Part shown: in pieces, positions 8,746 through 47,314 of the stretch
How the letters are laid out: each line of letters starts with the position of its first letter
How positions within the stretch are numbered: position 1 is the first letter of the stretch
Source: Mediterraneibacter catenae
GTDB taxonomy: Bacteria; Bacillota; Clostridia; Lachnospirales; Lachnospiraceae
Length of the DNA stretch: 64,000 bases
NCBI RefSeq assembly: GCF_008691045.1
Contig: NZ_VMSO01000002.1
Location: 124,001-188,000 of the forward strand
Direction of reading: 5' to 3'
The notes under the pieces: model-generated
The model's database searches: none
What the model saw: the letters and a program-made list of their open reading frames with translations, nothing else
Told to the model about the DNA's origin: nothing
Made by a program: the position numbers and the translations under genes

Positions 8746-10714
8746 CTGCGAGAGTCTCCCACATTTCATAGAGTTCTTCCAGCCGTTTTTCATTTGCTGC
8801 ATGTTCTTCTGCAAGTTCCTGGCATTTAACTGAGTTAGAGTAGACTTCTTCGAGTGTCATCTCGTGGTCGATCTGTGCGTTCCTGTCTTCGATACGGCTG
8901 ATCTCTTCCTCGGTTTTCTTCAGATCATTTTTGCGCTTGCGTTCTTTTGCCTGCTGTTCTTTCTGTTCCTGCCAGCTGAGTTTTGAGCCGGGCTGAACAG
9001 CGGCAGCTGACGCAGATGTGTCTGGAGCAGTGGAAATAGAAGGAGCGCCGGCGGTTTGTCCGGCGGAGCCGGAGATGCTGCCACTGCCTGCTGCATATGC
9101 GCGGGTGAGTTCTTCTTTTTTCTCCAGATAATAGTCGTAATTTCCGATATAGTTTACAAAGGTCTGATTGACCAGTTCCAGTATCCTTGAGGCCGTACTG
9201 TTGATGAAATATCTGTCATGGGATACATAGAGGACGGTCCCGCTGTAGTTGTTCAGCGCCTCCTCCAGTATTTCTTTTGATGCGATATCCAGATGGTTCG
9301 TAGGCTCGTCAAGGATCAGGAAGTTTGCCTCGGAGAGCATGAGTTTTGCAAGAGAGACACGTCCTTTCTCCCCGCCGCTCAGGGAACGGATCTCTTTGAA
9401 AACTTCATCTCCTGTAAACTGGAATGCAGCCAGCGTATTGCGGATCTGTGTGTTGTTCAGTGTCGGATAATCATCTGAGATCTCTTCGAATATTGTTTTA
9501 CTGTCATGGAGCACGTGGTGCTCCTGATCATAATATCCGATTCGCACTTTGGCTCCCAGTGTGAACGAACCTGTATCGGCACGCTGGACCTGATTCAGTA
9601 TTTTCAGAAGCGTAGTCTTACCAGTGCCGTTATCCCCGATAATTGCTACATGTTCCCCGCGTTTGATCTCGAAGCTGACATCTGAAAAGAGCACCTGACC
9701 GTCAAATTGTTTCGCGAGATGTTCCACGGTAAGTACATCGTTTCCGCTGACACAGGACGGCTCCAGTGTAAAGTGCATCTCGGTATTGATCTCGACCGGT
9801 TTCTCGACAGGAGTGATTTTTTCCAGCATCTTTTCCCTGCTTTCAGCCCGGCGGATAGATTTTTCCCTGTTAAAAGACTTCAGTTTTTCGATTACTGCCT
9901 GTTGATGTTTTATCTCTCTCTGCTGGTTATAGTATTCCTTCAGGCGTGCGTCGCGGAGCTGCTGCTTTTTTTCCGAATAAGCTTTGTAGTTCCCCATGTA
10001 CATCCTGATCTCACCGTTTTCAATCTCTACAACTTTTGTCACGACACGATTTAAGAAATACCGGTCGTGGGACACGATAAATACAGCGCCAGGATAATTG
10101 ATCAGATAAGTCTCCAGCCAGGCAATAGAGTTTAAGTCAAGATGATTCGTGGGCTCGTCCAGAAGCAGGATATCCGGATTGGTGAGCAGTAATTTACCGA
10201 GTGCAACACGGGTTTTCTGACCGCCGGAAAGCGTATCCGTCTTCTTGCTGAAATCCTCTTCAGAAAATCCAAGACCTTTGAGTACGCCGACGATTTCGCT
10301 CTCGCAGGCATATCCGTTGCGCGCCTCAAATTCAGATTGAAGACGATTGTATGTTTCAAGACGGCTTTCCAGCTCATTTCCGGAAAGTGATTTCAGCTCC
10401 AGTTCTACAGAACGTATGCGCTGTTCCATCTCAATAATGTCAGATTTTGCAGAACGGACTTCATCATAGATCGTTCCATCAGGAATCATATTCTGATGCT
10501 GTGCGAGATAGCCGATCGTTTTTCCTTTTGCAAGGATAATATCACCGCCATCAAGTGATTCTTCATTCATTATCATTTTTAATATAGTAGACTTGCCGGC
10601 GCCGTTTATACCGACCAGAGCAGCTTTTTCGCGTTCCTCTATGTGAAACGAACCTGCCCGGACGATCACGCGTTCGCCGAAAGATTTTTCAATATTATGG
10701 CATGCGAGTATCAT
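8741..10714 (-). CDS. ABC-F family ATPase (ribosome-associated, non-transporter)
   Basis: Soluble protein with two ABC ATPase domains and no membrane segment. Members of this family act on the ribosomal E site in translation or antibiotic protection. Domain 1 has Walker A GINGAGKST (about residue 35), LSGGQKTRV (about 162) and LLLDEPTNHLD. A charged interdomain linker (about 230-300) follows. Domain 2 has GDNGTGKTT (about 358), LSGGEKGRV and LILDEPTNHLD. The tail has an Ala/Ser/Thr-rich stretch (about 550-575) and a coiled coil. At 657 residues it fits the YdiF/Uup-like housekeeping group. The start ATG has GAGAGGAGG upstream. Nothing shows a role in resistance. Confidence 0.88.
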   Translation of the reverse strand: MILACHNIEKSFGERVIVRAGSFHIEEREKAALVGINGAGKSTILKMIMNEESLDGGDIILAKGKTIGYLAQHQNMIPDGTIYDEVRSAKSDIIEMEQRIRSVELELKSLSGNELESRLETYNRLQSEFEARNGYACESEIVGVLKGLGFSEEDFSKKTDTLSGGQKTRVALGKLLLTNPDILLLDEPTNHLDLNSIAWLETYLINYPGAVFIVSHDRYFLNRVVTKVVEIENGEIRMYMGNYKAYSEKKQQLRDARLKEYYNQQREIKHQQAVIEKLKSFNREKSIRRAESREKMLEKITPVEKPVEINTEMHFTLEPSCVSGNDVLTVEHLAKQFDGQVLFSDVSFEIKRGEHVAIIGDNGTGKTTLLKILNQVQRADTGSFTLGAKVRIGYYDQEHHVLHDSKTIFEEISDDYPTLNNTQIRNTLAAFQFTGDEVFKEIRSLSGGEKGRVSLAKLMLSEANFLILDEPTNHLDIASKEILEEALNNYSGTVLYVSHDRYFINSTASRILELVNQTFVNYIGNYDYYLEKKEELTRAYAAGSGSISGSAGQTAGAPSISTAPDTSASAAAVQPGSKLSWQEQKEQQAKERKRKNDLKKTEEEISRIEDRNAQIDHEMTLEEVYSNSVKCQELAEEHAANEKRLEELYEMWETLAE

Positions 10715-10847
10715 AGTGGTACTCCTCCTCTCAGATATCCATTATAACTGAAATGCCCGAAAAAACAAGAAAAAATCGCTTGAAGAAAACGAGTGTCCGA
10801 CCACTGATTAAAAAGAAATATATCGCCCTGTTAATTTAAAGTAAAAA

Positions 10848-10876
10848 TTGACAGAAGTTTGTCTATTTTATATAAT
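10848..10876 (+). promoter_or_regulatory. Consensus sigma-A promoter of the rex operon
   Basis: A perfect TTGACA (10848-10853) and a perfect TATAAT (10871-10876) are spaced by 17 bp, about 110 bases upstream of rex. This is the best promoter match in the window. Confidence 0.85.
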
Positions 10877-10984
10877 AAAACAGAATATAAATAAAAAGGT
10901 GCGCATAGAAGAGCAATTCCATCCGTAGCAGGCTGAAGATTGTGACTGGAGGATTGCCATGCGGTGGAAGGTGGTAAGTAAGAT

Positions 10985-11629
10985 TTGGAGCATAGAAAAA
11001 TATCCCGTGCAGTTATTTCCCGGCTGCCGAGATATCACAGGTATCTTGGAGATCTTCTGGAGGAGGGAGTAGAGCGTATATCTTCCAATGATCTGAGCAA
11101 GAAAATGCATGTGACGGCGTCACAGATCCGACAGGATCTCAATAATTTCGGAGGATTCGGACAACAGGGATACGGATATAACGTGAAATATCTGTATACT
11201 GAGATTGGAAAAATATTGGGGCTTGATAAAACACACAATTTTATTATCATAGGAGCAGGAAATCTCGGACAGGCACTTGCTAATTACGCTTCATTTGAGA
11301 GAAGCGGCTTCATTTTGAAGAGTCTGTTTGATGTAAATCCCAGGCTGGAGGGGATGTCGATCCGGAGCGTACAGGTGCGTATGATGGATGAACTTGTCGA
11401 TTTCCTGGCGAATAATGACATCGAGATTGCAGCGCTTACGATACCAAAGACAAAAGCGGTTGAAGTGGCTGATATTCTTGTGGCAAACGGAATCAAGGCA
11501 ATCTGGAATTTCGCACATACTGATCTGACACTGCCGAAGGATGTGGTTGTTGAGAGTGTACATCTTTCAGACAGTCTGATGCAGCTCTCCTATAATATCA
11601 GCCGTCGTAAAGAATCACGAAAAAAATAA
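10985..11629 (+). CDS. rex: Redox-sensing transcriptional repressor Rex
   Basis: Represses fermentation and redox genes and releases DNA when the NADH/NAD+ ratio rises. The 214-residue protein has the N-terminal winged helix (SSNDLSKKMHVTASQIRQDL, then NNFGGFGQQGYGY) and a Rossmann domain with IIIGAGNLGQALANY (about 90-104). The C-terminal NFAHTDLTLP and VHLSDSLMQLSY helix swaps between subunits. The start is a TTG behind AAGGTGG; no ATG is better placed. It is the first gene of a run with nnr and alr. I did not find a clear Rex palindrome in the upstream region. Confidence 0.93.
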   Translation: MEHRKISRAVISRLPRYHRYLGDLLEEGVERISSNDLSKKMHVTASQIRQDLNNFGGFGQQGYGYNVKYLYTEIGKILGLDKTHNFIIIGAGNLGQALANYASFERSGFILKSLFDVNPRLEGMSIRSVQVRMMDELVDFLANNDIEIAALTIPKTKAVEVADILVANGIKAIWNFAHTDLTLPKDVVVESVHLSDSLMQLSYNISRRKESRKK

Positions 11630-14941: not shown

Positions 14942-15673
14942 ATGTCAGGACATTCAAAATTTGCCAATATCAAACATAAGAAAGAGAAAAACGATGCTGC
15001 TAAGGGAAAGATCTTCACGAAGATCGGGCGTGAGCTGGCAGTAGCAGTAAAAGAGGGCGGCGGTCCGGATCCTGCCAATAACAGCAGGCTGCGTGACGTG
15101 ATCGCAAAAGCAAAGTCGAACAATATGCCGAATGATACGATCGAAAGAAATATCAAGAAAGCGGCAGGAGAAGGTTCCGGCGACAACTATGAGCATATTA
15201 CATATGAAGGGTACGGGCCGAACGGAACGGCGATCATTGTAAAAACGCTTACAGACAATAAGAACAGGACTGCGTCAAATGTGAGAAATGCATTTACAAA
15301 AGGAAGCGGAAATGTAGGAACTCCGGGCTGTGTGTCTTTCATGTTTGATGAAAAAGGACAGATATTCGTTGCAAAAGAAGACTGCGACATGGATGCGGAC
15401 GAACTGATGATGCTTGCACTGGACGCGGGCGCTGAGGATTTCACTGAGGACGAGGAGAGTTATGAGATCCTTACTGCACCGGATACATTCAGTGACGTAC
15501 GTCTGAAACTCGAGGAAGAGGGCATCGCAATGGCACAGGCAGAGGTGACGATGATCCCACAGACATATGTAGAGCTTACATCTGAGGAAGATATCAAGAA
15601 TATCCAGAAGACATTAGATCTCCTCGAAGAGGACGACGATGTCCAGGACGTATATCACAACTGGAATGAATAG
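14942..15673 (+). CDS. YebC/PmpR family protein
   Basis: The 243-residue protein carries the family signatures [14 protein letters not shown] at the start, [27 protein letters not shown] and [13 protein letters not shown]. YebC-family proteins were described as transcription regulators, and more recent work on the family supports a role in translation of difficult (proline-rich) sequences. The start has AGAGGAG upstream. It is followed by a gene starting 12 bases after its stop, so the two are probably co-transcribed. Confidence 0.92.
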
Positions 15674-30725: not shown

Positions 30726-32783
30726 ATGACAATGGACAACAGATATTCAGACGGAGCACAGTTTCTAAAAGATGTAACCGTTAAAATAGAGAACAGACTG
30801 GATGAGATCAGACAAGATCTGGATGAAGGTAAAAAAGAGATAGAAAATATGCATGAGTACTACTGGGAAAACTATACAGAGATGGACCAGTATGGTTATG
30901 AAGAATACGATAACCGGCAGGCTCTGCTCCAGCAGACAAATGCAAATACTGAGAAGCTTAAACAGAAACATCGTTTTGAGAAGATGAAAGACTCGCCCTT
31001 TTTCGGGAGAGTGGATTTTATATTTGAGGGAGAGTATGATCCGGAACCTTTCTATATCGGCATCGGAAATTTTGCTGAAAGGACAGGGATGACTCCGCTG
31101 ATTTACGACTGGAGAGCACCGGTGAGTGGTCTTTTCTATGATTATGATAAAGGACCGGCATCCTATGAGGCTCCGGCAGGAACCATTGCAGGAGAGATAA
31201 GCTCAAAATGGCAGTATAAGATCCGTGACGGCAAAATGATCTATGCCTTTGAGAGTGATACGAAGATCGATGATGAGATACTGAAGCAGGAGCTGGGAAA
31301 TAACGGCGATGTAAAGCTCAAAAATATTGTACGGACAATACAGAAAGAGCAGAATGCGATCATCCGCAATACAGAGGATAAGATTCTGGTGATCCAGGGA
31401 GGCGCCGGAAGCGGCAAGACTTCTATTGCGCTGCACCGGATCGCATATCTTCTGTATCATGACTGGAAGAACTTGAAATCATCCAATGTGCTGATTTTGT
31501 CGCCCAACAGTGTGTTTGCGGATTATATATCACATATCCTTCCCGAACTGGGAGAAGAGAATATTCAGGAGATGAGTTTTGATCTGTTTGCATACCGGGA
31601 GTTAAAAGATACGGCGGCAGACTGTGAGGATAAATATGACCATCTGGAACGCATTATGAAATTCCCGAGTGATCGTGAGAAAGAGCGGTTCCGCATGAAA
31701 CAGTCGGAAGACTTTGTGGGGCTGATCGAGGGCTTTCTGGCGACACTTGAGGACAGACTGATCGATTTTAAAGAGATCAGTTTCCGGGGAATGAAAATGT
31801 CGGAAGAGGAACTGATCCGTATGTTCTACTTTAAATTCCAGGACACTCCGCTGCTCGCAAGGATGAATGCGGTCAAGGACTACTTTATAGATGCTTATGA
31901 GACTCTCAAAGGCAGTGACATTTCCGACGATGACAGAGAACTGCTGAACAGTAAATTTGACAGCATGTATGTGACAAAAGATATTTATACCATTTATAAC
32001 TGGATGCTTGAAGACTACGGATATGATCAGCTTTCTGATGTGCCGTATGAGAGGAGAAAGATCCAGTATGAGGATGTATACCCTGTCCTTTATCTGAAAT
32101 ACAGGCTCCTCGGAAAAAGCTCGCAGAAAAATATCAAACATCTGGTGATCGATGAGATGCAGGACTATTCATATATGCAGTATGTTATCCTGGAAAATCT
32201 GTTTCAGTGCAGAATGACTATACTCGGGGATTATGCACAGACGCTGGATACAAAACAGCAGGATGTGTTGAAATTCCTGCCGAAGATTTTTGGAAAAGAT
32301 ATACGGAAAGTCATACTGAACAAAAGCTACCGAAATACTTATGAGATCGCACAGTATGCGGCGCAGATCAGCGGTATTACCGGGCTGGAACTTCTGGAGC
32401 GTCATGGCAGGCCGGTGGACGTCCGTAAATTCGATACAGAAGACGAGATGCTCGATGCGATCGTATCGAATGTGAATTTTGGAAAAGACGGATATGAGAC
32501 GGGCGCTGTTATCACGATGACAGAGGATGAAGCTTACGATCTTTATCGTCTGCTGAAAAAGCGCGGTGTGGATGCGGCATATGTGGACCGCGACAGCTCT
32601 GCGTTCAAGCGGGGACTTACAGTGACTACATTTTACCTGGCGAAAGGACTGGAATTCGATCAGGTATTTACGATACGAGGAGCGAAGGAAAACCCGCTTG
32701 CAGATCAGGCGGAGTATATCAGTGCCACAAGGGCACTTCAGGAGTTGTACGTGTACGAGACAGGCTCAGATTCCAAAGCCTGA
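30726..32783 (+). CDS. helD: HelD-type RNA polymerase recycling motor
   Basis: Superfamily 1 helicase-like ATPase of 685 residues that removes stalled RNA polymerase from nucleic acid. It has an N-terminal coiled-coil arm (about 1-80), motif I GGAGSGKTSIALHR (about 224), VLILSPNSVFADYIS, the Walker B-like VIDEMQDYSYMQY, and late motifs LNKSYRNTYEI and TTFYLAKGLEFDQVF. The insertion between the RecA-like parts is typical of the Firmicutes form. The start has GGGGAG upstream. It appears monocistronic; no clear terminator follows. Confidence 0.9.
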   Translation: MTMDNRYSDGAQFLKDVTVKIENRLDEIRQDLDEGKKEIENMHEYYWENYTEMDQYGYEEYDNRQALLQQTNANTEKLKQKHRFEKMKDSPFFGRVDFIFEGEYDPEPFYIGIGNFAERTGMTPLIYDWRAPVSGLFYDYDKGPASYEAPAGTIAGEISSKWQYKIRDGKMIYAFESDTKIDDEILKQELGNNGDVKLKNIVRTIQKEQNAIIRNTEDKILVIQGGAGSGKTSIALHRIAYLLYHDWKNLKSSNVLILSPNSVFADYISHILPELGEENIQEMSFDLFAYRELKDTAADCEDKYDHLERIMKFPSDREKERFRMKQSEDFVGLIEGFLATLEDRLIDFKEISFRGMKMSEEELIRMFYFKFQDTPLLARMNAVKDYFIDAYETLKGSDISDDDRELLNSKFDSMYVTKDIYTIYNWMLEDYGYDQLSDVPYERRKIQYEDVYPVLYLKYRLLGKSSQKNIKHLVIDEMQDYSYMQYVILENLFQCRMTILGDYAQTLDTKQQDVLKFLPKIFGKDIRKVILNKSYRNTYEIAQYAAQISGITGLELLERHGRPVDVRKFDTEDEMLDAIVSNVNFGKDGYETGAVITMTEDEAYDLYRLLKKRGVDAAYVDRDSSAFKRGLTVTTFYLAKGLEFDQVFTIRGAKENPLADQAEYISATRALQELYVYETGSDSKA

Positions 32784-32842
32784 ATATAAGAAGACCAGAA
32801 CAAGTATAAACTGCTTCCTGTGGGAAATGTTATAGTTAAAAA

Positions 32843-33300
32843 GACACAGAAGCAGCTGTGATCGGCGGCGGTATGGCAGGCATACTGACTGCATGGCGGC
32901 TTCAAAAGGCAGGAATCCGTGCTGTTGTCCTCGAGGCTGATCAGATTGGCGGAGGACAGACTAAGAATACCACGGCAAAGATCAACTCTCAGCATGGTCT
33001 TTTCTGTCATGAATTTATAGAGAAAAAGGGAGTAGAAACGGCAGAGAAATACCTGCAGGCGAATCAGCATGCAGTGGAGGAGTATAAAAGGATTATACGC
33101 GAAGAGGATATCGACTGTAATCTGACAGAGGCGGACGCATATGTCTACTCTTCTGACGGTGAGAGGCTAAGGAGGGAGGCAGATGCAGCGCAGAGTACGG
33201 GAAGATATCGCCTGTCATGCGGAGTACACGCTGATGTACGGGAATCGCGTGCTGCTGCATACAGTGACGAACAGTGCCGCGGCGGAGTATGACACAAAAG
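32843..33300 (+). pseudogene. Broken FAD-dependent oxidoreductase
   Basis: The frame from a GTG at 32858 gives VIGGGMAGILTAWRLQKAG, a Rossmann FAD-binding start, then VLEADQIGGGQTKNTTAKI and about 100 residues of a DadA-like/Rieske-associated oxidoreductase. It stops matching at about 33185 (after ERLRREADAAQ). The remaining frame to 33292 is composition noise. No proper ATG or ribosome site exists, and a TAA lies just upstream at 32837. About three quarters of a normal 400-500 residue enzyme is missing. A second frame, 33183-33300, encodes a short stretch I cannot identify, perhaps the end of another lost gene. This is deletion decay directly before rlmH. Confidence 0.7.
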
Positions 33301-33309
33301 AGGAGAAAA

Positions 33310-33789
33310 ATGAAAATAACAGTTATCACAGTAGGAAAGATAAAAGAAAAATATTTAAGAGACGCTATCGCCGAATACGGCAAGCGGCTGAGCCGCTACT
33401 GTAAACTGGAGGTCATCGAAGTCGCGGATGAAAAGACTCCGGATCAGGCAAGTGAAACAGTAGAAGACAATATCCGCGCAAAAGAGGGCGAGCGTCTGAT
33501 GAAACATATCAGGGATGATATGTATGTGATCACACTGGAGATCGGCGGAAAGATGCTCTCATCAGAAGAATTTGCAGAGAAGATAGAGACACTGGGCGTA
33601 CAGGGGAAAAGCAGTATTGCCTTTGTGATCGGCGGCTCGATCGGTCTGGGGAAAGAGGTGCTAAAAAGGTCGGATTTTGCGCTCAGTTTCTCGAAGATGA
33701 CATTTCCACATCAGTTGATGAGGGTGATATTGCTGGAGCAGGTGTATCGGGCGTATCGGATTATGAATGGAGAACCATATCACAAATAA
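33310..33789 (+). CDS. rlmH: 23S rRNA (pseudouridine-1915-N3)-methyltransferase RlmH
   Basis: SPOUT-class methyltransferase that modifies helix 69 of 23S rRNA. The 159 residues are standard, with [20 protein letters not shown] in pieces at the start, [14 protein letters not shown], the knot region [14 protein letters not shown] and the C-terminal [11 protein letters not shown] followed by GEPYHK. The ATG at 33310 follows AGAGGAG. Its 3' end is the conserved insertion site used by SCC-type elements in staphylococci. Here the last codons and about 150 bp of downstream DNA recur at 34908-35092, on the far side of the next two genes. Confidence 0.93.
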
Positions 33790-33927
33790 ATGCGGTTTTT
33801 TCGCATTTGGGTGTGAAGTAATAAATCATATAAAACGTTTGGAAAGAGAGCGAACAGATGATGTTCCGTTCTCTTTTTGCATGGGCAAGAAACAAAATGA
33901 CAGGGAAATATTTAGTGTGATATAATA
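33751..33927. repeat. Left copy of a direct repeat containing the rlmH 3' end (attL-like)
   Basis: This segment covers the last rlmH codons, a hairpin AAATGCG/CGCATTT with a T-rich loop, and the stretch with TTTGGAAAG...CAGATGATGTTCCG and ACAGGGAAAT up to the TATAAT box of the next gene. The same order of blocks, diverged by roughly a fifth by eye, is found at 34908-35092. Confidence 0.75.
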
Positions 33928-33974
33928 GGCTAAAATAGCTTGACAACTTGCTGTCAATGAAGGAGAAAAAACAT

Positions 33975-34427
33975 ATGATTTTATATCATGGAAGCAATGT
34001 TATAGTCCAGGAACCGCAGATTTTGGAAAATGGTTTTTACAAAGATTTCGGCTACGGATTTTACTGTACAATTATAGAAAAGCAGGCAAAACGTTGGGCT
34101 TTAACAAAACGCAGAAAGCATATTGTTAATTTTTATGAGTATTCACCTGATAAGAATCTGAACATTAAAAATTTTAGTGAGATGACAGAGGAGTGGCTGC
34201 AGTTTGTTGTAAACTGCCGGCTTGGTTTAAAACATGATTATGATGTTGTCGAGGGCCCGATGGCGGATGATACAATCTGGGATTATGTTGAGGACTATAT
34301 GGCAGAACGAATTTCGAAAGAGGCGTTCTGGGAACTGGTTAAGTTTAAGTATCCGACACATCAGATTGTATTCTGTACAGAGAAGGCATTACAGACTATC
34401 AAATTTGAAGGGAGTTATTCGCTATGA
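33975..34427 (+). CDS. DUF3990-family protein (ADP-ribosyltransferase-like)
   Basis: The 150-residue protein starts MILYHGSNVIVQEPQI, contains KDFGYGFYCTIIEKQAKRWA and ends with HQIVFCTEKALQTIKF. These are the DUF3990 hallmarks (HGS start and the FGxGFYxT motif), which resemble the NAD-binding core of ADP-ribosyltransferase folds. Activity is not shown for this protein. The ATG at 33975 lies 9 bases after AAGGAG and a TATAAT-like promoter. Its stop overlaps the next start by four bases, the layout of a two-gene toxin-antitoxin or effector-immunity unit. The pair is AT-rich and enclosed by the rlmH-derived direct repeats. Confidence 0.75.
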   Translation: MILYHGSNVIVQEPQILENGFYKDFGYGFYCTIIEKQAKRWALTKRRKHIVNFYEYSPDKNLNIKNFSEMTEEWLQFVVNCRLGLKHDYDVVEGPMADDTIWDYVEDYMAERISKEAFWELVKFKYPTHQIVFCTEKALQTIKFEGSYSL

Positions 34428-34894
34428 CAAACAAATTTTTCCCGGAAGAGCAGGTGACCGAGAACGATCTTTATTTTCTATGTTATATGGTGGAGCGGGT
34501 GGCAAGAAAATTACATCAAAAGAATAAATATGTTGTAAATTCTATACCAAAAGATGAGTGGGTGCGTCTGATCAGTCTGGCTAATGTACTCCACTGTGAG
34601 AATCCTCTGAAAATTGAAGATGAATGGATTGAAGAGTATAGGTTGGAAAAAGGAAATTTTGATATAACGGATGTGGATTTAGAACTTGTAGACGAGATTC
34701 CGTCAGAAACACAAATGGGCAAGGTGTATACAAGGCTGATTTTGTCAACGTTACAGCCGGAGGAAGATTATATCAATGGAATGATTCGAGTATACAATGA
34801 TGAAATATGCGATACGATTGATAATTACAATAGCAGCGCATATTATGAACCGTCTTATGTAATAACAAGAGCTTATAATAATGGAGGTTTTTAA
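34424..34894 (+). CDS. Unknown partner of the DUF3990 protein (possible antitoxin)
   Basis: Acidic 156-residue protein with no domain I can name. It begins with helical sequence (TENDLYFLCYMVERVARKLHQ in pieces), then RLISLANVLHCENPLKIEDEWIEEY in pieces, and has a Tyr/Asn-rich end. The start ATG overlaps the DUF3990 stop (ATGA), so synthesis is coupled. DUF3990 genes often sit beside a small DUF3791 protein, but this one is longer and only weakly similar by eye. A role as neutralising partner is inferred from position and charge only. Confidence 0.55.
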   Translation: MTNKFFPEEQVTENDLYFLCYMVERVARKLHQKNKYVVNSIPKDEWVRLISLANVLHCENPLKIEDEWIEEYRLEKGNFDITDVDLELVDEIPSETQMGKVYTRLILSTLQPEEDYINGMIRVYNDEICDTIDNYNSSAYYEPSYVITRAYNNGGF

Positions 34895-34907
34895 AAAGAA
34901 GATAACC

Positions 34908-35092
34908 GCATTTGGATATGTTATGGAGAGCCGTATCATAAGTGGGTGAGGTTTTTTCGCATTTTATTGTGATATGGTGTGAAGTCATGAATCATGTAAA
35001 GTATTTGGAAAGGGAGTGGACAGATGATGTTCCGCTCTCTTTTCGTATGGGTAAGAAAGACAATGACAGGGAAATAAACGAATGGTATAATG
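34908..35092. repeat. Right copy of the rlmH 3'-end repeat (attR-like)
   Basis: A vestige of the rlmH end is encoded at 34925-34942 (GEPYHK in frame, without the stop), preceded by bases resembling the codons before it. The GGTTTTTTCGCATTT hairpin part, GGTGTGAAGT, the TTTGGAAAGGGAGTGGACAG block, GATGATGTTCCG and ACAGGGAAAT follow, ending at the promoter of the QueG-like gene. The core TATCATAAGTG is close to the SCC integration core. Confidence 0.75.
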
Positions 35093-35138
35093 AAGTAAAA
35101 CTAGGTCGACAGATTGGAATTTGCGGAGGGGATATTGT

Positions 35139-35834
35139 ATGTTGGATAGTAAAAGGATAAAGGAAATAATGTTTGCGTTAGGTGCAGATTTGTGTGGTAT
35201 AGCAAGTATAGATAGGTTTGATAATGCACCGAAAGGCTATCATCCTTTAGATGCACTTCCGACTTGCAAATCGGTAATTTCTTTTGGTTGCAGATTTCCA
35301 GTAGGAACACTTAATTGCAAGTCTAATATTCCATATACAAGGATAAGAAATTCTATCACGTCAAAAATGGATGCGATAGTTCTAGATTTTTGTATTGAAA
35401 TGGAAAAGAACCAGATAGTATGTGTTCCTATTCCTACAAATGAAAGCCAATGGGATAAAAATACTAACAGATGGCGTTCTATTGTTTCGCAAAAACATAT
35501 AGCTCAAGCGGCGGGCTTGGGAACAATAGGGAGGCATTCTTTGTTAATAACGCCAGAGTTTGGAAGTATGGTCTGGTTAGGAGCAGTGTTATGCGAACAG
35601 AATCTTGAGCCTGATAAAATGAAAGAACCTCTTTGTAATAATTGTAACTTATGTGTTGATATTTGTCCTGTAAATGCTTTAGAAAATCCAGAAATAAAAC
35701 AGCAATCCTGTTGGGATTTTGCATTTGGAGATGATGAAGAAGAGAAGGTTTGGAGAATAGCTTGTCATAAGTGTAGAGATATTTGTCCGTATAATCTAGG
35801 CAGTCAAAATTCGATTTTAAGGAAGAATAACTAA
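35139..35834 (+). CDS. QueG-like [4Fe-4S] protein (epoxyqueuosine reductase homolog)
   Basis: The 231-residue protein resembles the N-terminal catalytic and ferredoxin parts of epoxyqueuosine reductase. It has an N-terminal GADLCGIASIDRF, HIAQAAGLGTIGRHSLLITPEFG in pieces, and two cluster motifs: CNNCNLCVDICPVNAL (about 175-190) and CHKCRDICPYN (near 220). The C-terminal HEAT-like tRNA-binding domain of QueG is absent, so it belongs to the shorter group of unknown substrate. The ATG follows GGAGGGG. The codon use is AT-rich, like the rest of the island. It lies just after the right rlmH repeat, which may supply its promoter. Confidence 0.75.
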   Translation: MLDSKRIKEIMFALGADLCGIASIDRFDNAPKGYHPLDALPTCKSVISFGCRFPVGTLNCKSNIPYTRIRNSITSKMDAIVLDFCIEMEKNQIVCVPIPTNESQWDKNTNRWRSIVSQKHIAQAAGLGTIGRHSLLITPEFGSMVWLGAVLCEQNLEPDKMKEPLCNNCNLCVDICPVNALENPEIKQQSCWDFAFGDDEEEKVWRIACHKCRDICPYNLGSQNSILRKNN

Positions 35835-35956
35835 AGAAAATTTATCGAGGAGTTGAGCGGTGCAAAATTGGAATTTACGGAGGTAAACTGTTTGGAAGAG
35901 ATAATCCTAAATTATATAGATATGTCAGAAGAGCAAAAATAAACGCTTTAAAGAAT

Positions 35957-36304
35957 TTGAAAAATATTGGTTTTTATCCGGCATATGGCACAGAACTGAC
36001 AATGAAAAAAATAATGGATAAATCCGTCGTCAATAAAATGCCGCAATTCTATTTTGTTTTTAGAAAGGAACAGTTAATAGGGTATCTGTTTATCATTGGA
36101 GATACGCAAAAATACAGACCTTTTCCGTGGTTGGCCATTAGCAATGTGGATGAACTCCCGATGAGAATTACAAGACCCTTGATGAAAATACATATTAAAG
36201 CATGGGAAAAGATGAATGATGCAACTATGGCAGATTATCTTCGTAGACAGCTAATAGATTATGAACATGGAGTGGGACAACGTCCTGAAAATCTATGCAG
36301 ATAA
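35957..36304 (+). CDS. Hypothetical protein, N-terminus uncertain
   Basis: The called frame (115 residues from a TTG) has no ribosome site. The same frame stays open upstream to about 35830, including YGGKLFGRDNPKLYRYVRR-like sequence in pieces, but without an ATG. A different frame over the same bases (ending at 35940, DMSEEQK) also looks protein-like. The gene may be 5'-truncated or carry a frameshift. The visible part includes YFVFRKEQLIGYLFIIGD and YRPFPWLAISNVDELP. I do not recognise the family. Confidence 0.45.
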   Translation: MKNIGFYPAYGTELTMKKIMDKSVVNKMPQFYFVFRKEQLIGYLFIIGDTQKYRPFPWLAISNVDELPMRITRPLMKIHIKAWEKMNDATMADYLRRQLIDYEHGVGQRPENLCR

Positions 36305-36355
36305 CTCCTAAGTTATAGAAATAGAAAAATTGGAATTGGTAAGGGAGATGACTTT

Positions 36356-36772
36356 GTGAAAAAATTAAGTGAAGATGCTGAAAAAATAATGTCGGAACGA
36401 TTTGGAAAAGATACCATTATTGCATTGGCAACAGTAGAAAATGAGGTGCCTTTTGTACGTTATGTAAATGCGTATTATGAGAATGGTGCATTTTATATTA
36501 TTACATATGCACTTTCAAATAAAATGAGGCATATGGAAAGCAACTCTACTGTTGCAATAGCTGGTGAATGGTTCACGGCACATGGAAAGAGTATCAATTT
36601 GGGATATTTCGGGAAAGAGGAAAATTACTGGATTGCCGAGAAATTGAAAAATGTATTTTCTGAGTGGATCGACAATGGACATAATAATTTTGATGATGAG
36701 AATACTATAATTTTATGTGTAGAATTAACCGATGGACTGTTACTTTCACATGGAACAAAGTACGAGTTTTAG
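36356..36772 (+). CDS. Pyridoxamine 5'-phosphate oxidase-fold protein
   Basis: Split-barrel flavin-binding fold of 138 residues. An N-terminal helix (EDAEKIMSERFGKDTIIALAT in pieces) is followed by EVPFVRYVNAYYENGAFYIIT, SNKMRHMESNSTVAIAGEWF and a C-terminal LCVELTDGLLL. Proteins of this class bind FMN, heme or F420; general-stress and nitroreductase-like roles are known. The start is a GTG; GGGAGATGA upstream serves as the ribosome site. Low GC fits the island. Confidence 0.72.
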   Translation: MKKLSEDAEKIMSERFGKDTIIALATVENEVPFVRYVNAYYENGAFYIITYALSNKMRHMESNSTVAIAGEWFTAHGKSINLGYFGKEENYWIAEKLKNVFSEWIDNGHNNFDDENTIILCVELTDGLLLSHGTKYEF

Positions 36773-36865
36773 TTTTCAGTTTCCGGTTTGTATGGCAGAT
36801 CCTAATTGAAAATATTCTTAATAGGATATAATAGTAGCGTATAAGAAGCAGGGAGGAATGATGAT

Positions 36866-37138
36866 ATGATGTATCCATTTATGACATTGAATGATGAGAC
36901 AGAAATTGTTCATTCTGATATGCAGAATGATGGAAGAGTAAAAGTGTATATTGAGAGACCAGATGAAAAATATGGATTTAAACATGCTGCATGTTGGCTC
37001 CCCGATTACACATGGGAAGATATTTACCATTTTTCAGAAGAAGAGATTAAGCAATTCGAAGAGATAATAAGGTCAACGGCACATCTTATTATCGAATTCT
37101 CTCAGGAAGGGGGCTTTGAGAATGCCTCAAATCTTTAG
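36866..37138 (+). CDS. Small conserved protein upstream of a DUF4160 gene
   Basis: Acidic 90-residue protein without a function I can name. It contains EIVHSDMQNDGRVKVYIERPDE in pieces, CWLPDYTWEDIYHFSEEEI and HLIIEFSQEGGF. It overlaps the start of the following DUF4160 gene by 17 bases, so the two form a coupled pair. Genes of this size pair commonly with DUF4160 in Clostridia, possibly as a toxin-antitoxin-like unit; this is inference. GGGAGG lies upstream of the ATG. Confidence 0.6.
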   Translation: MMYPFMTLNDETEIVHSDMQNDGRVKVYIERPDEKYGFKHAACWLPDYTWEDIYHFSEEEIKQFEEIIRSTAHLIIEFSQEGGFENASNL

Positions 37139-37298
37139 AATGGGAGAATACTGGATTTATTTCTGGACAAATGAGAATAAACCTGTTGAACCGATCCACG
37201 TACATATCGCAAAAGGAAAGCCATCTGAAAATGCGACAAAGGTATGGATTACCAGTGCGGGGAAATGTCTGCTCTGCAATAATAATTCAAGAATACCT
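37122..37298 (+). pseudogene. DUF4160 gene cut by an IS4-type element
   Basis: About 59 residues remain: MPQIFRMGEYWIYFW, PIHVHIAKGKP, ATKVWITSAGKC and LLCNNNSRIP. The DUF4160 family continues for another 30-40 residues, but at 37298-37300 the sequence switches to the antisense strand of a transposase gene. It is translated with overlap after the gene before it. Confidence 0.75.
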
Positions 37299-37850
37299 TT
37301 TTTGAAATGCATATCGGTGTGGTCGAATACTTTTGATCCCAGTTCTGTTTTCTTGCAGCTGGTTCGACTAAAAAGGCTGTCATCAACAATGAACACATTT
37401 TTCCTGCTATCGTCCGTTAGATCTTTGAGATCATTATTGACGATATCAGCAGCCAGAAGAGAAGTAAAACGGAGCCAGTTTGTTTTTGCCGAATTTAGGA
37501 ACCGATAAAAAGTGTTCTTTGAAAAATCTTCCTTAAAAGAGCCAGTTCGTTGCTGCATATACATGCTTCTTCCGACAAAAATGTTGCTGAGCTTGTAGCG
37601 GAGCAGAGAAACAGGTGAAACACCTTTTTCTTTCATCCCATTGCATTTGGCGAGAAGCTTGCCGACATGATGCTTGGAAAAAAATCTCTGAACACAATCA
37701 ATTAACTCGTTCTCATCGCAATAGTTTTGTGGTATACTGGACATGGCATAAATCTCCTTTGTATAGATGGTTTTTCGTCAATTCCATTATACCAAACGGG
37801 ACAGGTTTATGCCTTTTTTATTGGCTGAAATATTGAATTTTCAAGGTTCA
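37299..37850 (-). mobile_element. 5' half of an IS4-family element (N-terminal transposase fragment plus one end)
   Basis: The frame starts at 37744 (MSSIPQNYCDENELIDC) and keeps about 148 residues of an IS4-type transposase, up to DHTDMHFKKG, including the first catalytic Asp region (FIVDDSLFSRTSCKK). It breaks off at the junction with the DUF4160 gene. The terminal inverted repeat lies at 37824-37846; the same 23 bases appear in reverse complement at 45675-45697. The 3' half of the element is not here. Confidence 0.8.
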
Positions 37851-40352: not shown

Positions 40353-41891
40353 ATGAAAAGAAAACTGAAAAAAGGAAAAGTAGCTGTAGGTTTGATTCTG
40401 GCGGGGGCATTGGCGGCCAATCCTGCAATTTCCCTGTGCGCGGCTGAATCTGATGAGACAGTGGCTTATCAGACGGAGGATCAGGCAACCGGAGTCGGGG
40501 AAAATGTTATTCAGGATGATCAGGAAGATGATAACCTGAGTCAGGATGATGCTGGGACAGGCGATACAGATCAGACAACTGACAGTGAAGAGGGAACCGA
40601 TGGATCTGGTGAAGAGCAGACGCCTGGTGAGGACAGCGGTGAGAATCCTGCGGGAGACGGAAGCGAAGACCCATCAGGTGATGGAAGTCAGGATCCGTCA
40701 GGAGACGGGAACGAAGATCCATCAGGGGATGGAAGTGAGGATCCGTCAGGAGACGGAAGTGAGGATCCGTCAGGAGATGGAAGTGAGGATCCATCAGAGG
40801 ATGGAAGCGAAGATCCGTCAGAAGATGGAAATGAAGATCCGGCCGGAGAGGAAACAGAAGATCCGGAAGAGAGCTTCACAGGACTTCAGAAGCAGGAGAA
40901 CGGAGAATGGTATTATCTTGTCGATGGAGTTTTCCAGGATACATATACAGGACTTGTAAAGCATACGACAGGTACCTGGTATTATGTAGAAAATGGAATT
41001 ATTCAGTTCCATGTAACAGGTCTGATCAAGCACGTCAGCGGAAGCTGGTACTATGTAAAAGACGGCAGGATGCATAGCAGCTATACGGGGCTTGTAAAGC
41101 ATACGACAGGTACCTGGTACTATGTGGAAAAGGGAATGGTTCGCTTTAATACGACAGGGCTTGTAAAGCATGTCAGTGGTTCATGGTACTATGTGAAGGC
41201 CGGCAGAATGCAGAGCAGCTTCAGGGGCTTTGTAAAGCATACCAGTGGCACATGGTATTATATCGAAGGCGGTAAGATGCAGAGCAATTACACCGGACTG
41301 GGTAAACACACAACTGGTACATGGTATTATACAGTAAAAGGTAAGATGCAGGGTGATTATACGGGCCTGGCAAAGCATACGACAGGTACCTGGTACTATG
41401 TGGAACTTGGACGATGGATTCCGAATTTCAGCGGTATGGTGGAATATAACGGGAAATATTATCCGGTAAGAAATGGAAAGAAAGCCGGCAGCGGAAAGAC
41501 TGTCAGCCAGATGTCAACAAGTGAATTACGGGAGGCTGCGCAGACCATAGCGAAATGGATCGCGGCAGATGCAAAGGATTATTCCTCTGATAAATGGGAG
41601 CAGGCTGCTTACGCTGCCGCATTGGTTTCAGTTTTCTGTGAGTACAGTGAATATACAACAGAAGGCAAGTACTACAGGGAAGCATGGGGACCATTTGTCG
41701 TAGGAGAATATTCCTGTGCAGGAGCTACCCGTGCAACAGGAATGGTACTGGATTATCTGGGGATATCCTGGACTCACGCAAATGCAAATCAATGGACACA
41801 TCAGTGGTGCAACATAACCATTAATGGCGTGAAGGGATGGGCAGACGGCCAGATCGGAGAAGCCGGTATAGGAGAATACCCATACGTATAA
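40353..41891 (+). CDS. Secreted wall-binding-repeat protein with a C-terminal transglutaminase-like domain
   Basis: The 512-residue exported protein has a signal peptide (about 1-30, basic KRKLKKGK then a hydrophobic core ending SLCAAE). An acidic linker (about 32-175) follows, with eight tandem 8-residue units (GSEDPSGD type). Next are eight to nine wall-binding repeats of about 23 residues (TGLVKHTTGTWYYV...). The C-terminal domain (about 395-512) has a Cys in GEYSCAGATRATG, a His in THQWCNITING and an Asp in GWADGQIG. This Cys-His-Asp order is that of transglutaminase-like cysteine enzymes. It probably acts on or crosslinks cell-surface protein or peptidoglycan. A convergent paralog follows. 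Confidence 0.8.
   Translation: MKRKLKKGKVAVGLILAGALAANPAISLCAAESDETVAYQTEDQATGVGENVIQDDQEDDNLSQDDAGTGDTDQTTDSEEGTDGSGEEQTPGEDSGENPAGDGSEDPSGDGSQDPSGDGNEDPSGDGSEDPSGDGSEDPSGDGSEDPSEDGSEDPSEDGNEDPAGEETEDPEESFTGLQKQENGEWYYLVDGVFQDTYTGLVKHTTGTWYYVENGIIQFHVTGLIKHVSGSWYYVKDGRMHSSYTGLVKHTTGTWYYVEKGMVRFNTTGLVKHVSGSWYYVKAGRMQSSFRGFVKHTSGTWYYIEGGKMQSNYTGLGKHTTGTWYYTVKGKMQGDYTGLAKHTTGTWYYVELGRWIPNFSGMVEYNGKYYPVRNGKKAGSGKTVSQMSTSELREAAQTIAKWIAADAKDYSSDKWEQAAYAAALVSVFCEYSEYTTEGKYYREAWGPFVVGEYSCAGATRATGMVLDYLGISWTHANANQWTHQWCNITINGVKGWADGQIGEAGIGEYPYV
40659..40850 (+). repeat. Eight in-frame 24-bp tandem repeats
   Basis: Eight consecutive 24-bp units encode the acidic linker of the wall-binding protein (GSEDPSGD and variants). 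Units 4-6 are nearly identical at the DNA level, which favours gain and loss of units by slippage or recombination. Confidence 0.85.
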
Positions 41892-41991: not shown

Positions 41992-43563
41992 TCAGTATAC
42001 AACAACCTTTGTAGAGCTGGGAATGTTGTCATAGATCCATTTTGCATTCCCGATACTGAGCCGTACACATCCGGCGGAAGCGTTGATTCCGAGACGCCCG
42101 TCCTGGATATCGGTCATGCTTCCCGGCTCGTACAGTACGGAATGGAATAAATAATTGCCGTAGAACTGCGTATAATACCAGCATGTATAGCCGTGACCGA
42201 AGGCTTTTCCTTTGCTTCCTACTGTAAACTGCCCTTTTACTGTTGGAGTAGAAGATTTTCCTGTAGTGCATACCCAGAAATATTTCTGCGTCCAGTTGCC
42301 CTTGGAACCATTGTAGATTCCTACTCTGTTTGCTTTTGTATCAACAAGGATGAGCCATTTGGTCTGGCTGCTGTACTGCTGAGCCTTGTTATACATGGAA
42401 ACCTGACTTACTTCCATTCCGGTTCCGACTTTTTTCCCGTTTTTAACAGTATAGTATTTACCGTTATAAGTAACGACCCCGTTATATGAGCTGTTCCATT
42501 TGCCTTTAACAACATAATACCATGTGCCGCTTGTATGCTTTGCCAGTCCGGTATAGTTATTCTGCATTCTGCCGTTCTTGATATAATACCAGGAACCGGT
42601 CGTGTGCTTCGCCATACCAGTATAGTTGTGCTGTACTTTCCCGGCTTTGACATAATACCATGATCCTGTGGTATGCTTGACAAGTCCGTTAAAATTACTC
42701 TGCATTCTGCCGTCCTTGACATAATACCAGGAACCGCTGACATGCTTTACAAGACCAGTGACGCCATGCTGTACTACACCGTTCTTGATGTAGTACCAGG
42801 AACCTGTACTGTGTCTGGCAAGCCCGGTATAATTGCTCTGCATTCTGCCGTCTTTTATATAATACCAGATGCCGTCAATGTTTTTGATAAGTCCTGTATA
42901 ATCACTTTGCATCACACCGTTTTTTACGTAATACCATGTACCGCTGACATGTTTGATCAGCCCTGTAGCATCAAAATTAACGATACCGTTTTCAACATAA
43001 TACCATGTACCATCAGTGTCTTTTACCAGTCCGGTGTATGTATCCTGAAGTATTCCTTCAATCAGATAATACCAGGAGCCGTCCGGCTGTTCCTGAAGGC
43101 CGGTAAATGGCTCTTCCGGTTCTTCCGGTGTTTCATCACCCGGATTGCTTTCACCCGGCTGTTCTTCATCGGAATCATCATTTCCAGTCTGATCATCACC
43201 CGGATTGCTGTCTTCTCCGGTTTGTGTGTCATCCCCTGGCTGCCCTTCGTCTGAGCCATCCTCTGCCGGAGTCTGAGGATCTTCCGATGTATCAGCGTCA
43301 TCCTGGGAGCCGGTATCCGAATTATCTTCCTGATTCCCGGTATCTCCGGTCTCATCAGATGGAATATCACTATTTCCCGTATCGGATGGCTGGTTAGAAC
43401 TTTCATCCTCTCCGGTCTGCTGTCCGGAAAGATTTTCGTCAGCTTCTGCTTCATAAACACTTACGGTGCCGTCTTCTGCATACAGAGAGACTGCCGGGCT
43501 GAGAGCAAGAATACCTGAGAGGATAAGACCGGTCACGATCACGCCGATTTTCTTTCTCTTCAT
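41992..43563 (-). CDS. Secreted wall-binding-repeat protein with an L,D-transpeptidase domain
   Basis: The 523-residue exported protein has a signal peptide (MKRKKIGVIVTGLILSGIL), an Asp/Glu/Gly-rich linker (about 35-150), nine to ten wall-binding repeats of about 23 residues (TGLVKHVSGSWYYV...), and a C-terminal YkuD domain. The YkuD domain has WLILVDTKANRVGIY, the His of HSVLYEPG, and the active-site SAGCVRLSIGNAKW (catalytic Cys). It should make 3-3 crosslinks or attach proteins in the peptidoglycan. It is a paralog of the convergent gene at 40353-41891, with the same plan except for the last domain. AGGAGGGT precedes the ATG. Confidence 0.88.
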   Translation of the reverse strand: MKRKKIGVIVTGLILSGILALSPAVSLYAEDGTVSVYEAEADENLSGQQTGEDESSNQPSDTGNSDIPSDETGDTGNQEDNSDTGSQDDADTSEDPQTPAEDGSDEGQPGDDTQTGEDSNPGDDQTGNDDSDEEQPGESNPGDETPEEPEEPFTGLQEQPDGSWYYLIEGILQDTYTGLVKDTDGTWYYVENGIVNFDATGLIKHVSGTWYYVKNGVMQSDYTGLIKNIDGIWYYIKDGRMQSNYTGLARHSTGSWYYIKNGVVQHGVTGLVKHVSGSWYYVKDGRMQSNFNGLVKHTTGSWYYVKAGKVQHNYTGMAKHTTGSWYYIKNGRMQNNYTGLAKHTSGTWYYVVKGKWNSSYNGVVTYNGKYYTVKNGKKVGTGMEVSQVSMYNKAQQYSSQTKWLILVDTKANRVGIYNGSKGNWTQKYFWVCTTGKSSTPTVKGQFTVGSKGKAFGHGYTCWYYTQFYGNYLFHSVLYEPGSMTDIQDGRLGINASAGCVRLSIGNAKWIYDNIPSSTKVVVY

Positions 43564-46753: not shown

Positions 46754-46774
46754 AAGTATGCAGGAGGTTTTTTG

Positions 46775-47314
46775 ATGAATATTCCGAAAGTAATAAATTC
46801 AGAAGAAGTTTATAAAGGCAAAATCATCTCTATCAGAAAGGATACGCTGACACGCGGGGATGGAAAGCATTTTATCAGGGAGACAGCGGTGTCCAGTGAC
46901 GCAGTTGCGGTCGTGGCTATGGATGAGCAGAGGCGGATACTTATGATACGTCAGTACCGCCATCCAATGGGCTGTCCGGTCTGGGAGATCCCTGCGGGAA
47001 AGATGGATATTTGTGGAGAGAAGCCGGAAGAGACGGCAATTCGGGAGCTGCAGGAAGAAACAGATACAACAGCCGAAGACATTAAACTTCTGACTATATT
47101 TTATAATTCGGCAGGATGGACAAATGAAAAAACATATGTTTATCTGGCAAGAAATCTAAAAGAAGTTCCCGAATTCAAAAGAGAAAATGAGGAAGCTGAT
47201 ATTGAGAAGAAGTGGATTTCTTTGGATGATGCATATGAACTTGTACGCACAGGAAAACTGGCTGATGCAAAGACTGTGATCGGAATACTGCTTACGTTTG
47301 CAGCAAATCTATGA
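46775..47314 (+). CDS. NUDIX hydrolase (ADP-ribose pyrophosphatase type)
   Basis: The 179-residue protein has the NUDIX box around GEKPEETAIRELQEETDTTAED (positions about 85-107; Gly, Glu, REL and EE pattern present). It also has an N-terminal VYKGKIISIRKDTL and a middle MIRQYRHPMGCPVWEIPAGK, as in ADP-ribose/sugar-nucleotide pyrophosphatases. The ATG at 46775 lies after AGGAGG. Its end overlaps the upstream reach of the next gene, which starts 13 bases later, so the two are likely co-transcribed. Confidence 0.88.
   Translation: MNIPKVINSEEVYKGKIISIRKDTLTRGDGKHFIRETAVSSDAVAVVAMDEQRRILMIRQYRHPMGCPVWEIPAGKMDICGEKPEETAIRELQEETDTTAEDIKLLTIFYNSAGWTNEKTYVYLARNLKEVPEFKRENEEADIEKKWISLDDAYELVRTGKLADAKTVIGILLTFAANL

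Follow-up and report, generated by a model that had tools for sequence, protein, structure and literature searches.

SCC elements of staphylococci are tens of kilobases long and carry the helicase Cch and a DUF1643 gene near ccr, the recombinase genes that pseudo-SCC elements lack. A different arrangement is that of the integron, in which short mobile cassettes are lined up in order at a single anchor. The target of SCC is the 3′ end of rlmH, with the core TATCAYAA in the last codons of the gene and direct repeats in series (PMC4723332, PMC7251135, PMC3026799), and some elements have been called pseudo-SCC (PMC6450365). The ECC elements, hosted in Bacilli, are large, with 42 ORFs on average and their own ccrAB (PMC6222049). 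In other Bacillota, rlmH islands with Pol-SSB primases, large serine recombinases and genetic-conflict cargo have been described, with two or more repeats of the rlmH end in some composites, and the islands of Clostridioides difficile and Clostridium perfringens use ssrA; the main text of that report does not contain "Lachno", and its accessible text describes no recombinase-less cassettes of about 1 kb (PMC10061031). Among the matches listed in a literature search that left subscription papers and preprints outside, no report was found of SCC-like elements in Lachnospiraceae or Clostridia, nor of the small promoter-bearing cassettes presented here.

The locus analyzed is a window of 64,000 nucleotides from the gut clostridium Mediterraneibacter catenae (Lachnospiraceae; contig NZ_VMSO01000002.1, positions 124,001 to 188,000), where the 3′ end of rlmH is followed by a unit of about 1.2 kb (33769-34942). 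The closest named relatives of this rlmH, with 91% identity at the protein level, come from Mediterraneibacter assemblies. This unit is very probably a small non-autonomous relative of SCC, moved by a Ccr recombinase supplied in trans and stacking in an array. SCC, ECC and the rlmH islands of other Bacillota are known, and the site and the core are the same here. As in SCC, insertion is at the rlmH 3′ end and the core, with its central C, lies in the last codons and recurs in a row as direct repeats, namely TATCACAA at 33778-33785, with one base different, and TATCATAA at 34934-34941; the latter agrees with the preliminary description of this DNA, which had found the second copy close to the SCC core. 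The SCC-type core motif was taken from PMC6222049, and the TATCACAA form also occurs in DR3 of PMC3026799. Inverted-repeat ends and a dyad, also SCC features, are present for the ends and attR. No ccr was found in the window unit, nor any candidate above 235 bits in the genus, so the unit is filed as SCC-like and non-autonomous and not as SCC. In contrast to SCC, the host is a gut clostridium, core-to-core distances are mostly 0.6-7.4 kb, and elements of the window type carry a leader with a hairpin and a promoter-like sequence and usually a small gene pair at their end. The cassette also differs from ECC in being small, without ccrAB and from a class other than Bacilli, whereas with the Pol-SSB islands it shares the position downstream of rlmH and the repeated rlmH end of composites. 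Like integrons, the rlmH arrays consist of short cassettes at one anchor whose order is shuffled between species; unlike in integrons, most elements have their own promoter-like leader, and the core and the linked recombinases point to serine recombinases.

Attachment sites and ends of the unit

Two blocks of direct repeat, one of 101 nt at 85% identity (33810-33910 and 34976-35076) and the other of 50 nt at 78% (33767-33816 and 34923-34972), bear out the earlier claim that the rlmH end occurs twice in the same order. Global alignment of 33767-33927 with 34923-35092 gives 129 identical columns out of 171, with 11 gap columns, and a score of 87.5, compared with a mean of -20.7 (sd 5.0, maximum -6.5) in 200 mononucleotide shuffles. 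When up to 2 mismatches are allowed, the core GARCCRTATCAYAAR has two places in the whole window, both mismatch-free and both in the repeat copies, but since 1.47 chance matches are expected at this tolerance, the core count by itself is no proof. The right-end sequence has a single place (34907-34926), the expectation being 0.01 when up to 3 mismatches are allowed. GEPYHK, the C-terminal end of RlmH, is encoded by both cores; in copy 2 it is readable as claimed, with TGG replacing the stop.

The repeat itself stands, but the extent first given to the copies (33751-33927 and 34908-35092) needs correction, as copy 2 matches rlmH only from 34923. The stretch 34904-34926 (AACCGCATTTGGATATGTTATGG) is instead the right terminus of the element, an inverted repeat of the left end at 33775-33797 (23 nt, 78% complementary). 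The enclosed AT-rich pair of overlapping genes (33975-34427, DUF3990, and 34424-34894) is as described. Core, left terminus, leader, cargo, right terminus and core follow one another over 1,156 bp from core to core (Table 1), and this order, together with the inverted-repeat ends, therefore gives the unit the anatomy of an inserted element, in which the repeat is a real attachment-site pair.

Table 1. Features of the rlmH locus (positions in the window).
Feature	Coordinates	Strand	Evidence
rlmH, SPOUT methyltransferase; host gene with attachment site at 3′ end	33310..33789	+	Pfam PF02590, E 3e-61
att core copy 1 (GGAGAACCATATCACAAA), present rlmH end	33769..33786	+	sequence, core search
Left-end palindrome, includes part of core copy 1	33774..33822	+	fold -16.0 kcal/mol, z -4.4; inverted repeat with right end
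Hairpin with U-rich 3′ arm, probable rlmH terminator from element	33841..33878	+	-17.7 kcal/mol, z -3.7; similar stretch in relatives
Promoter-like ATGACA-18-TATAAT before cargo	33897..33926	+	11/12 consensus matches; in 13/14 leader copies
DUF3990 gene, PADLOC PDC-M10A	33975..34427	+	Pfam E 3e-53; PADLOC 260 bits; AlphaFold2 pLDDT 92
Partner gene, 156 aa, PADLOC PDC-M10B	34424..34894	+	PADLOC 289 bits; no Pfam; 4-nt overlap with DUF3990 gene
Element 1 right terminus (AACCGCATTTGGATATGTTATGG)	34904..34926	+	inverted repeat of left end; found again at element ends of relatives
att core copy 2 (GGAGAGCCGTATCATAAG), former rlmH end, TGG in place of stop	34925..34942	+	sequence, core search
Element 2 left-end leader	34943..35092	+	hairpin 35007-35044, promoter-like 35063-35091
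4Fe-4S protein, element 2 cargo, partial QueG relative	35139..35834	+	below NCBIfam cut-off; 99.3% nt to L044
115-aa protein, element 2 cargo	35957..36304	+	no Pfam family
PNPOx-like protein, element 2 cargo	36356..36772	+	just under Pfam cut-off; 99.0% nt to L044
90-aa gene of terminal pair, family F5, element 2	36866..37138	+	100% nt to L044
DUF4160-type gene, element 2, end approximate	37122..37297	+	comparison with intact L044, L042 copies
NUDIX-type gene, chromosomal right border	46772..47314	+	window copy matched by eye to F9

The leader

About 140 bp of the repeat are a leader that the elements carry themselves, and for this reason the idea that all of the roughly 150 bp behind rlmH are host DNA was rejected. 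The hairpins of the two leader copies fold at -17.7 and -21.9 kcal/mol (z -3.7 and -5.3), and each copy has ATGACA and TATAAT boxes spaced by 17 or 18 nt with 11/12 matches. A promoter consensus scan gave 6 sites compared with 5.7 in shuffles, that is, not above shuffles, and the hairpin at 33841-33878 is not among the plus-strand terminators of a terminator scan, so the argument for the leader rests on conservation. Fourteen copies chosen for matching the repeat (13 directly behind rlmH, the window included, plus copy 2) keep the promoter-like sequence with the sole exception of L012, and inspection of their alignment by eye also shows a comparable hairpin stretch, although the genes behind the leaders differ. 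A leader match, in some cases short, was found in 32 of 58 genus genomes; L017, L022, L023 and L028, for example, have no such leader behind rlmH. The leader of copy 2 is 91-92% identical to those directly behind rlmH in L011 and L005, and 78% identical to copy 1. The left end gives rlmH its stop, a hairpin and a predicted cargo promoter, the last two of which would work as terminator and promoter.

Empty sites and exchange between species

Only one genome per species was compared, and presence or absence of the unit is thus a comparison between species. When the window flanks are joined in the shared core, they align in one piece with Lachnoclostridium sp. An118 (L044; 92.8% over 1069 nt), L020 (87.0%, 614 nt), L005 (89.1%, 366 nt) and L191 (87.9%, 365 nt), and the filled window splits into two pieces against each of them. 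The gene that follows is the Fe-S gene in L044 and L020, and other genes come after the leader in L005 and L191. Alignment to rlmH loci without the pair, suggested in the preliminary description as a check, thus gives a single core followed by the sequence to the right of window copy 2. The same description would have taken a pair at unrelated positions in relatives as an argument against insertion; the DUF3990 pair of other species was likewise found behind rlmH, accompanied by different cargo.

Cargo and chromosome differ in their identity between species. Compared with L044, rlmH is 78.5% identical and the Fe-S gene 99.3%, PNPOx 99.0%, F5 100%, DUF3990 93.6% and its partner 89.6%; compared with Claveliimonas bilis (L046), the values are 73.3% for rlmH, 97.6% for PNPOx, 94.9% for F5, 94.3% for DUF3990 and 91.9% for the partner. 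In G064 (locus L172), the closest species whose contig also holds rlmH, the cargo does not exceed rlmH (rlmH 93.5%, DUF3990 91.8%, partner 91.3%), so the excess of cargo identity is not general. The stretch 33760-35120 matched none of 72,556 plasmid and 50,697 phage records and the two end patterns matched nothing in viral_contigs, and a phage or plasmid origin of the unit was rejected on these searches. No RNA family reached the gathering threshold in 32500-37500.

Tandem arrays in relatives

The right-end pattern, at up to 2 mismatches, was found at 25 places in 15 of 58 genus genomes and at none with the reversed pattern. Fifteen of these places follow rlmH on its own contig and strand; the other 10, on contigs without rlmH, are all within 6.4 kb of a contig end. 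A right-end profile likewise finds copies behind rlmH in relatives, as tandem elements with shuffled cargo: 38 right ends (score of at least 22) and 30 intervals between cores (51 to 7,358 bp) in 43 stretches, chosen from the rlmH locus collection as downstream or contig stretches. As L046 and L235 have near-identical layouts and L038, L173 and L182 share one common cassette, these counts are not all independent. In Clostridium sp. Marseille-P3244 (L042), element 1 carries the DUF3990 pair and element 2 a DUF4160/DUF2442 pair; in C. bilis, the DUF3990 pair is followed by PNPOx with the F5/DUF4160-type pair and then by the DUF4160/DUF2442 pair, with a core after each; in L044, the genes of window element 2 come first and the DUF3990 pair second. 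A small-pair gene lies within 300 bp before 27 of the 38 right ends, and the remaining 11 are preceded by no called gene (5, in two of which, L176 and L180, blastn places a pair gene), by one common lipoprotein-like gene (3) or by other genes (3).

GEPYHK is unchanged in 21 of the 38 internal cores and is directly followed by a stop in 20 of them, window copy 2 with its TGG being the sole exception. Among 28 distinct cores, differences from the window rlmH core, uncorrected for kinship, are 62 synonymous and 41 nonsynonymous, compared with 10 synonymous and 44 nonsynonymous among the 54 possible single changes. By these codons the internal cores look like former rlmH ends, and a preference of the recombinase could also hold some core positions. 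Directly behind rlmH, L040 (10494-10528) and L172 (4409-4444) have 51-bp core-to-core remnants with almost adjoining termini, which are minimal, cargo-less forms. Several att-like palindromes (GATACGGNGAACCGTA) were also seen at two chromosomal places of G346 (L222, cores at 9464, 14932 and 16379; L223, cores at 14964 and 9451), with no rlmH in the stretch and, by eye, near a carboxylase-like gene or riboflavin-type genes; they are possible secondary insertion sites.

Ccr-like recombinases

With a CcrB model, the best score in the 58 genus genomes was 235 bits, with 153 in the genome of the window, and five control recombinases of the genus scored 107-192 bits. The preliminary description had noticed no recombinase in the unit or nearby, which agrees with the gene content of the unit and with the top score of 235 bits in the genus, and from this we infer movement in trans. 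Since no Ccr-like gene accompanies the cassettes in this genus, these could also be fossils or be moved in some other way. A profile of five genus recombinases gave a single weak match among the ORFs of the rlmH loci, L054_6136, upstream of rlmH, and a recombinase of this kind within the arrays was discarded.

Three of 299 Lachnospiraceae genomes, scored for at most 4 candidates each, stand out on the CcrB model with 387, 375 and 353 bits, the next best having 244. A protein search of 397 genomes, with at most 3 candidates per genome scored, gave the same three recombinases and that of G381 (348 bits). On NF047343, those of G257, G364, G238 and G381 score 348-388 bits, under the curated cut-off of 900, and by sequence they are relatives of staphylococcal CcrB and not CcrB itself. 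A core with dyad lies within 5 kb of the recombinase in all four Ccr-like loci (three with the strict core pattern) and in none of 20 other recombinase loci, 18 of them from the CcrB searches and 2 from the 13 of the genome of the window. The core motif matched in 16 of the 299 genomes, all three high scorers included, and in one genome with the reversed control; in G293, one of the 16, the match is the end of rlmH itself, and the 13 without a high scorer have no CcrB match at 1e-60.

Of the larger elements whose search had been proposed, examples with the same att core and a Ccr-like serine recombinase were found between rlmH and a second core in G257 and G381. In G257, 9.2 kb hold rlmH, a DUF1643 gene, an 831-aa protein with no match in Pfam, NCBIfam or PDB, the recombinase, a PD-(D/E)XK nuclease-family gene and the core, with a site (CGCACTTAAGGTTCTTATGGAGAACCATATCATAAGTAAGTGCG) very like those in the genus of the window; neither DUF1643 nor such an 831-aa protein is in the window element. 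In G381, the rlmH core and the next core are 29.5 kb apart, with the recombinase between them and no further core. In G364 and G238 the contigs break, and the left end behind rlmH is, by eye, of the same kind as that behind the recombinase-side core.

Proposed mechanism and alternatives

In the first step, a large serine recombinase of the Ccr type, provided in trans, would recombine attB, the 3′ end of rlmH, with attP, which is the junction of a cassette in circular form and consists of the right terminus, GGAGARCCRTATCAYAAR and the left terminus. The newcomer would supply the last few codons of rlmH, its stop, the hairpin and the promoter that drives the cargo, and the former rlmH end would be pushed to the right side of the newcomer. 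With repeated insertions, elements would line up in tandem from rlmH to the NUDIX gene, and in the window the newest element, with the DUF3990 pair, would stand in front of the older element 2, composed of the Fe-S protein, the 115-aa protein, PNPOx and the F5/DUF4160-type pair, whose right end would have been lost to a transposase-like insertion. The ends, the empty-site match, the tandem arrays, the excess cargo identity and the link between Ccr and core are read from sequence comparisons; from them we infer the recombination itself, the supply in trans and the circular form. The preliminary reading of an insertion like that of SCC holds, but the unit looks less like a scar than like an intact element, one of a tandem array, that lacks a recombinase.

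The best-placed alternative, though improbable, is that the cassettes spread, once DNA has been taken up, chiefly through homologous recombination in rlmH and the leader; the att-like ends would then be relics of an old SCC-like element, and no recombinase would act at present. No Ccr in the 58 genus genomes, leaders that are alike over about 150 bp, and a constant terminal pair behind varying cargo, which looks like recombination inside elements, would fit this explanation. However, old relics would lose the unchanged protein ends and stops kept by 21 and 20 of the 38 internal cores, and the family does have Ccr-bearing elements with very similar cores. It is very improbable that another large serine recombinase of the host moves the cassettes: PF07508 has 13 matches in the genome of the window and is widespread in the genus, with matches in 45 of 58 genomes, but the 20 non-Ccr loci have no core within about 5 kb, and the family is absent, some assemblies being incomplete, from G016 and G002, which have cassette ends, and from G025 and G030, which have the leader. 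A plain tandem duplication of the rlmH 3′ region that diverged with the gene pair caught between the copies, which would account for direct repeats of about 160 bp with host codons, is hardly credible and was rejected on the match of the joined flanks with pair-less species as one piece and on termini that recur with other cargo in other species, the right terminus being moreover an inverted repeat of the left end and the copy 2 leader nearer those of L011 and L005 than that of copy 1.

If insertion by a Ccr in trans is true, recombination of the SCC type would extend from Bacilli to a major gut family, and the SCC architecture would be able to shrink to a cassette of one or two genes with a built-in promoter. 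The interval between rlmH and NUDIX would be one fixed address where the traffic of candidate defence genes and toxin-antitoxin genes between gut clostridia could be read directly. Ccr-like recombinases beside an rlmH core in Clostridia also bear on the origin of SCC. For a broader reading the chances seem evenly balanced: the rlmH platform of Lachnospiraceae may resemble a recombinase-free integron, where short cassettes, each bearing a leader with terminator and promoter and usually closed by a toxin-antitoxin or phage-defence pair, are stacked and moved between species and genera by Ccr from rare larger elements.

Cargo of the two elements

The genes of element 1 match both models of PDC-M10, a candidate phage defence system of PADLOC, adjacent and in order, with 260 and 289 bits and no difference seen. 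PDC-M10 is a candidate family only, and no naming paper was found in the literature searched. Judged by its sequence, the pair may be a candidate system of phage defence; it may be a toxin-antitoxin or abortive-infection pair that either stabilises the element or defends the host. Both families are large, with 4,668 DUF3990 relatives and 2,732 partner relatives at any location. DUF3990 is listed in the ART clan of Pfam (PMC7955679). The confident AlphaFold2 model of this protein (pLDDT 92) has no relative in the PDB by sequence below E 0.32, and the L172 relative alone gives a weak ART-PolyVal match (E 0.0014), below cut-off. The partner has a low-confidence helical model (pLDDT 56) and, by profile, no significant relation to DUF3791 or to a 78-aa gene. 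The window DUF3990 protein matches the M13 models of PADLOC as well, and in L172 a 6.7-kb element ends (10161-11093) in DUF3791, DUF3990 and 78-aa genes, in the place taken elsewhere by the DUF3990 pair.

In element 2, a transposase-like stretch replaces the 3′ part of the DUF4160-type gene and the right att site. The transposase-like ORF (37157-37744, minus strand) breaks the gene and the att site is missing; the gene is intact in L044 and L042, and in L044 the att site comes next. A motif, AATTGGAATT(T/G), precedes successive genes of element 2 (35866-35876 and 36328-36338; compare 35113-35122), and several relatives have a similar one where leader and gene meet; it may mark a second, finer junction for the exchange of cargo genes. 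The motif ATTGGAATTT has 2 exact matches at the gene junctions of this element, a number reached by 4 of 100 shuffles. At the right border, the arrays of L034, L039, L042, L172, L174 and L184 are followed by F9, a NUDIX relative. Between element 2 and the NUDIX-type gene of the window lie two convergent genes, 40353-41891 (plus strand) and 41992-43563 (minus strand), whose secreted-looking products have, by eye, a repeated module like choline-binding repeats, one of the two ending like an L,D-transpeptidase.
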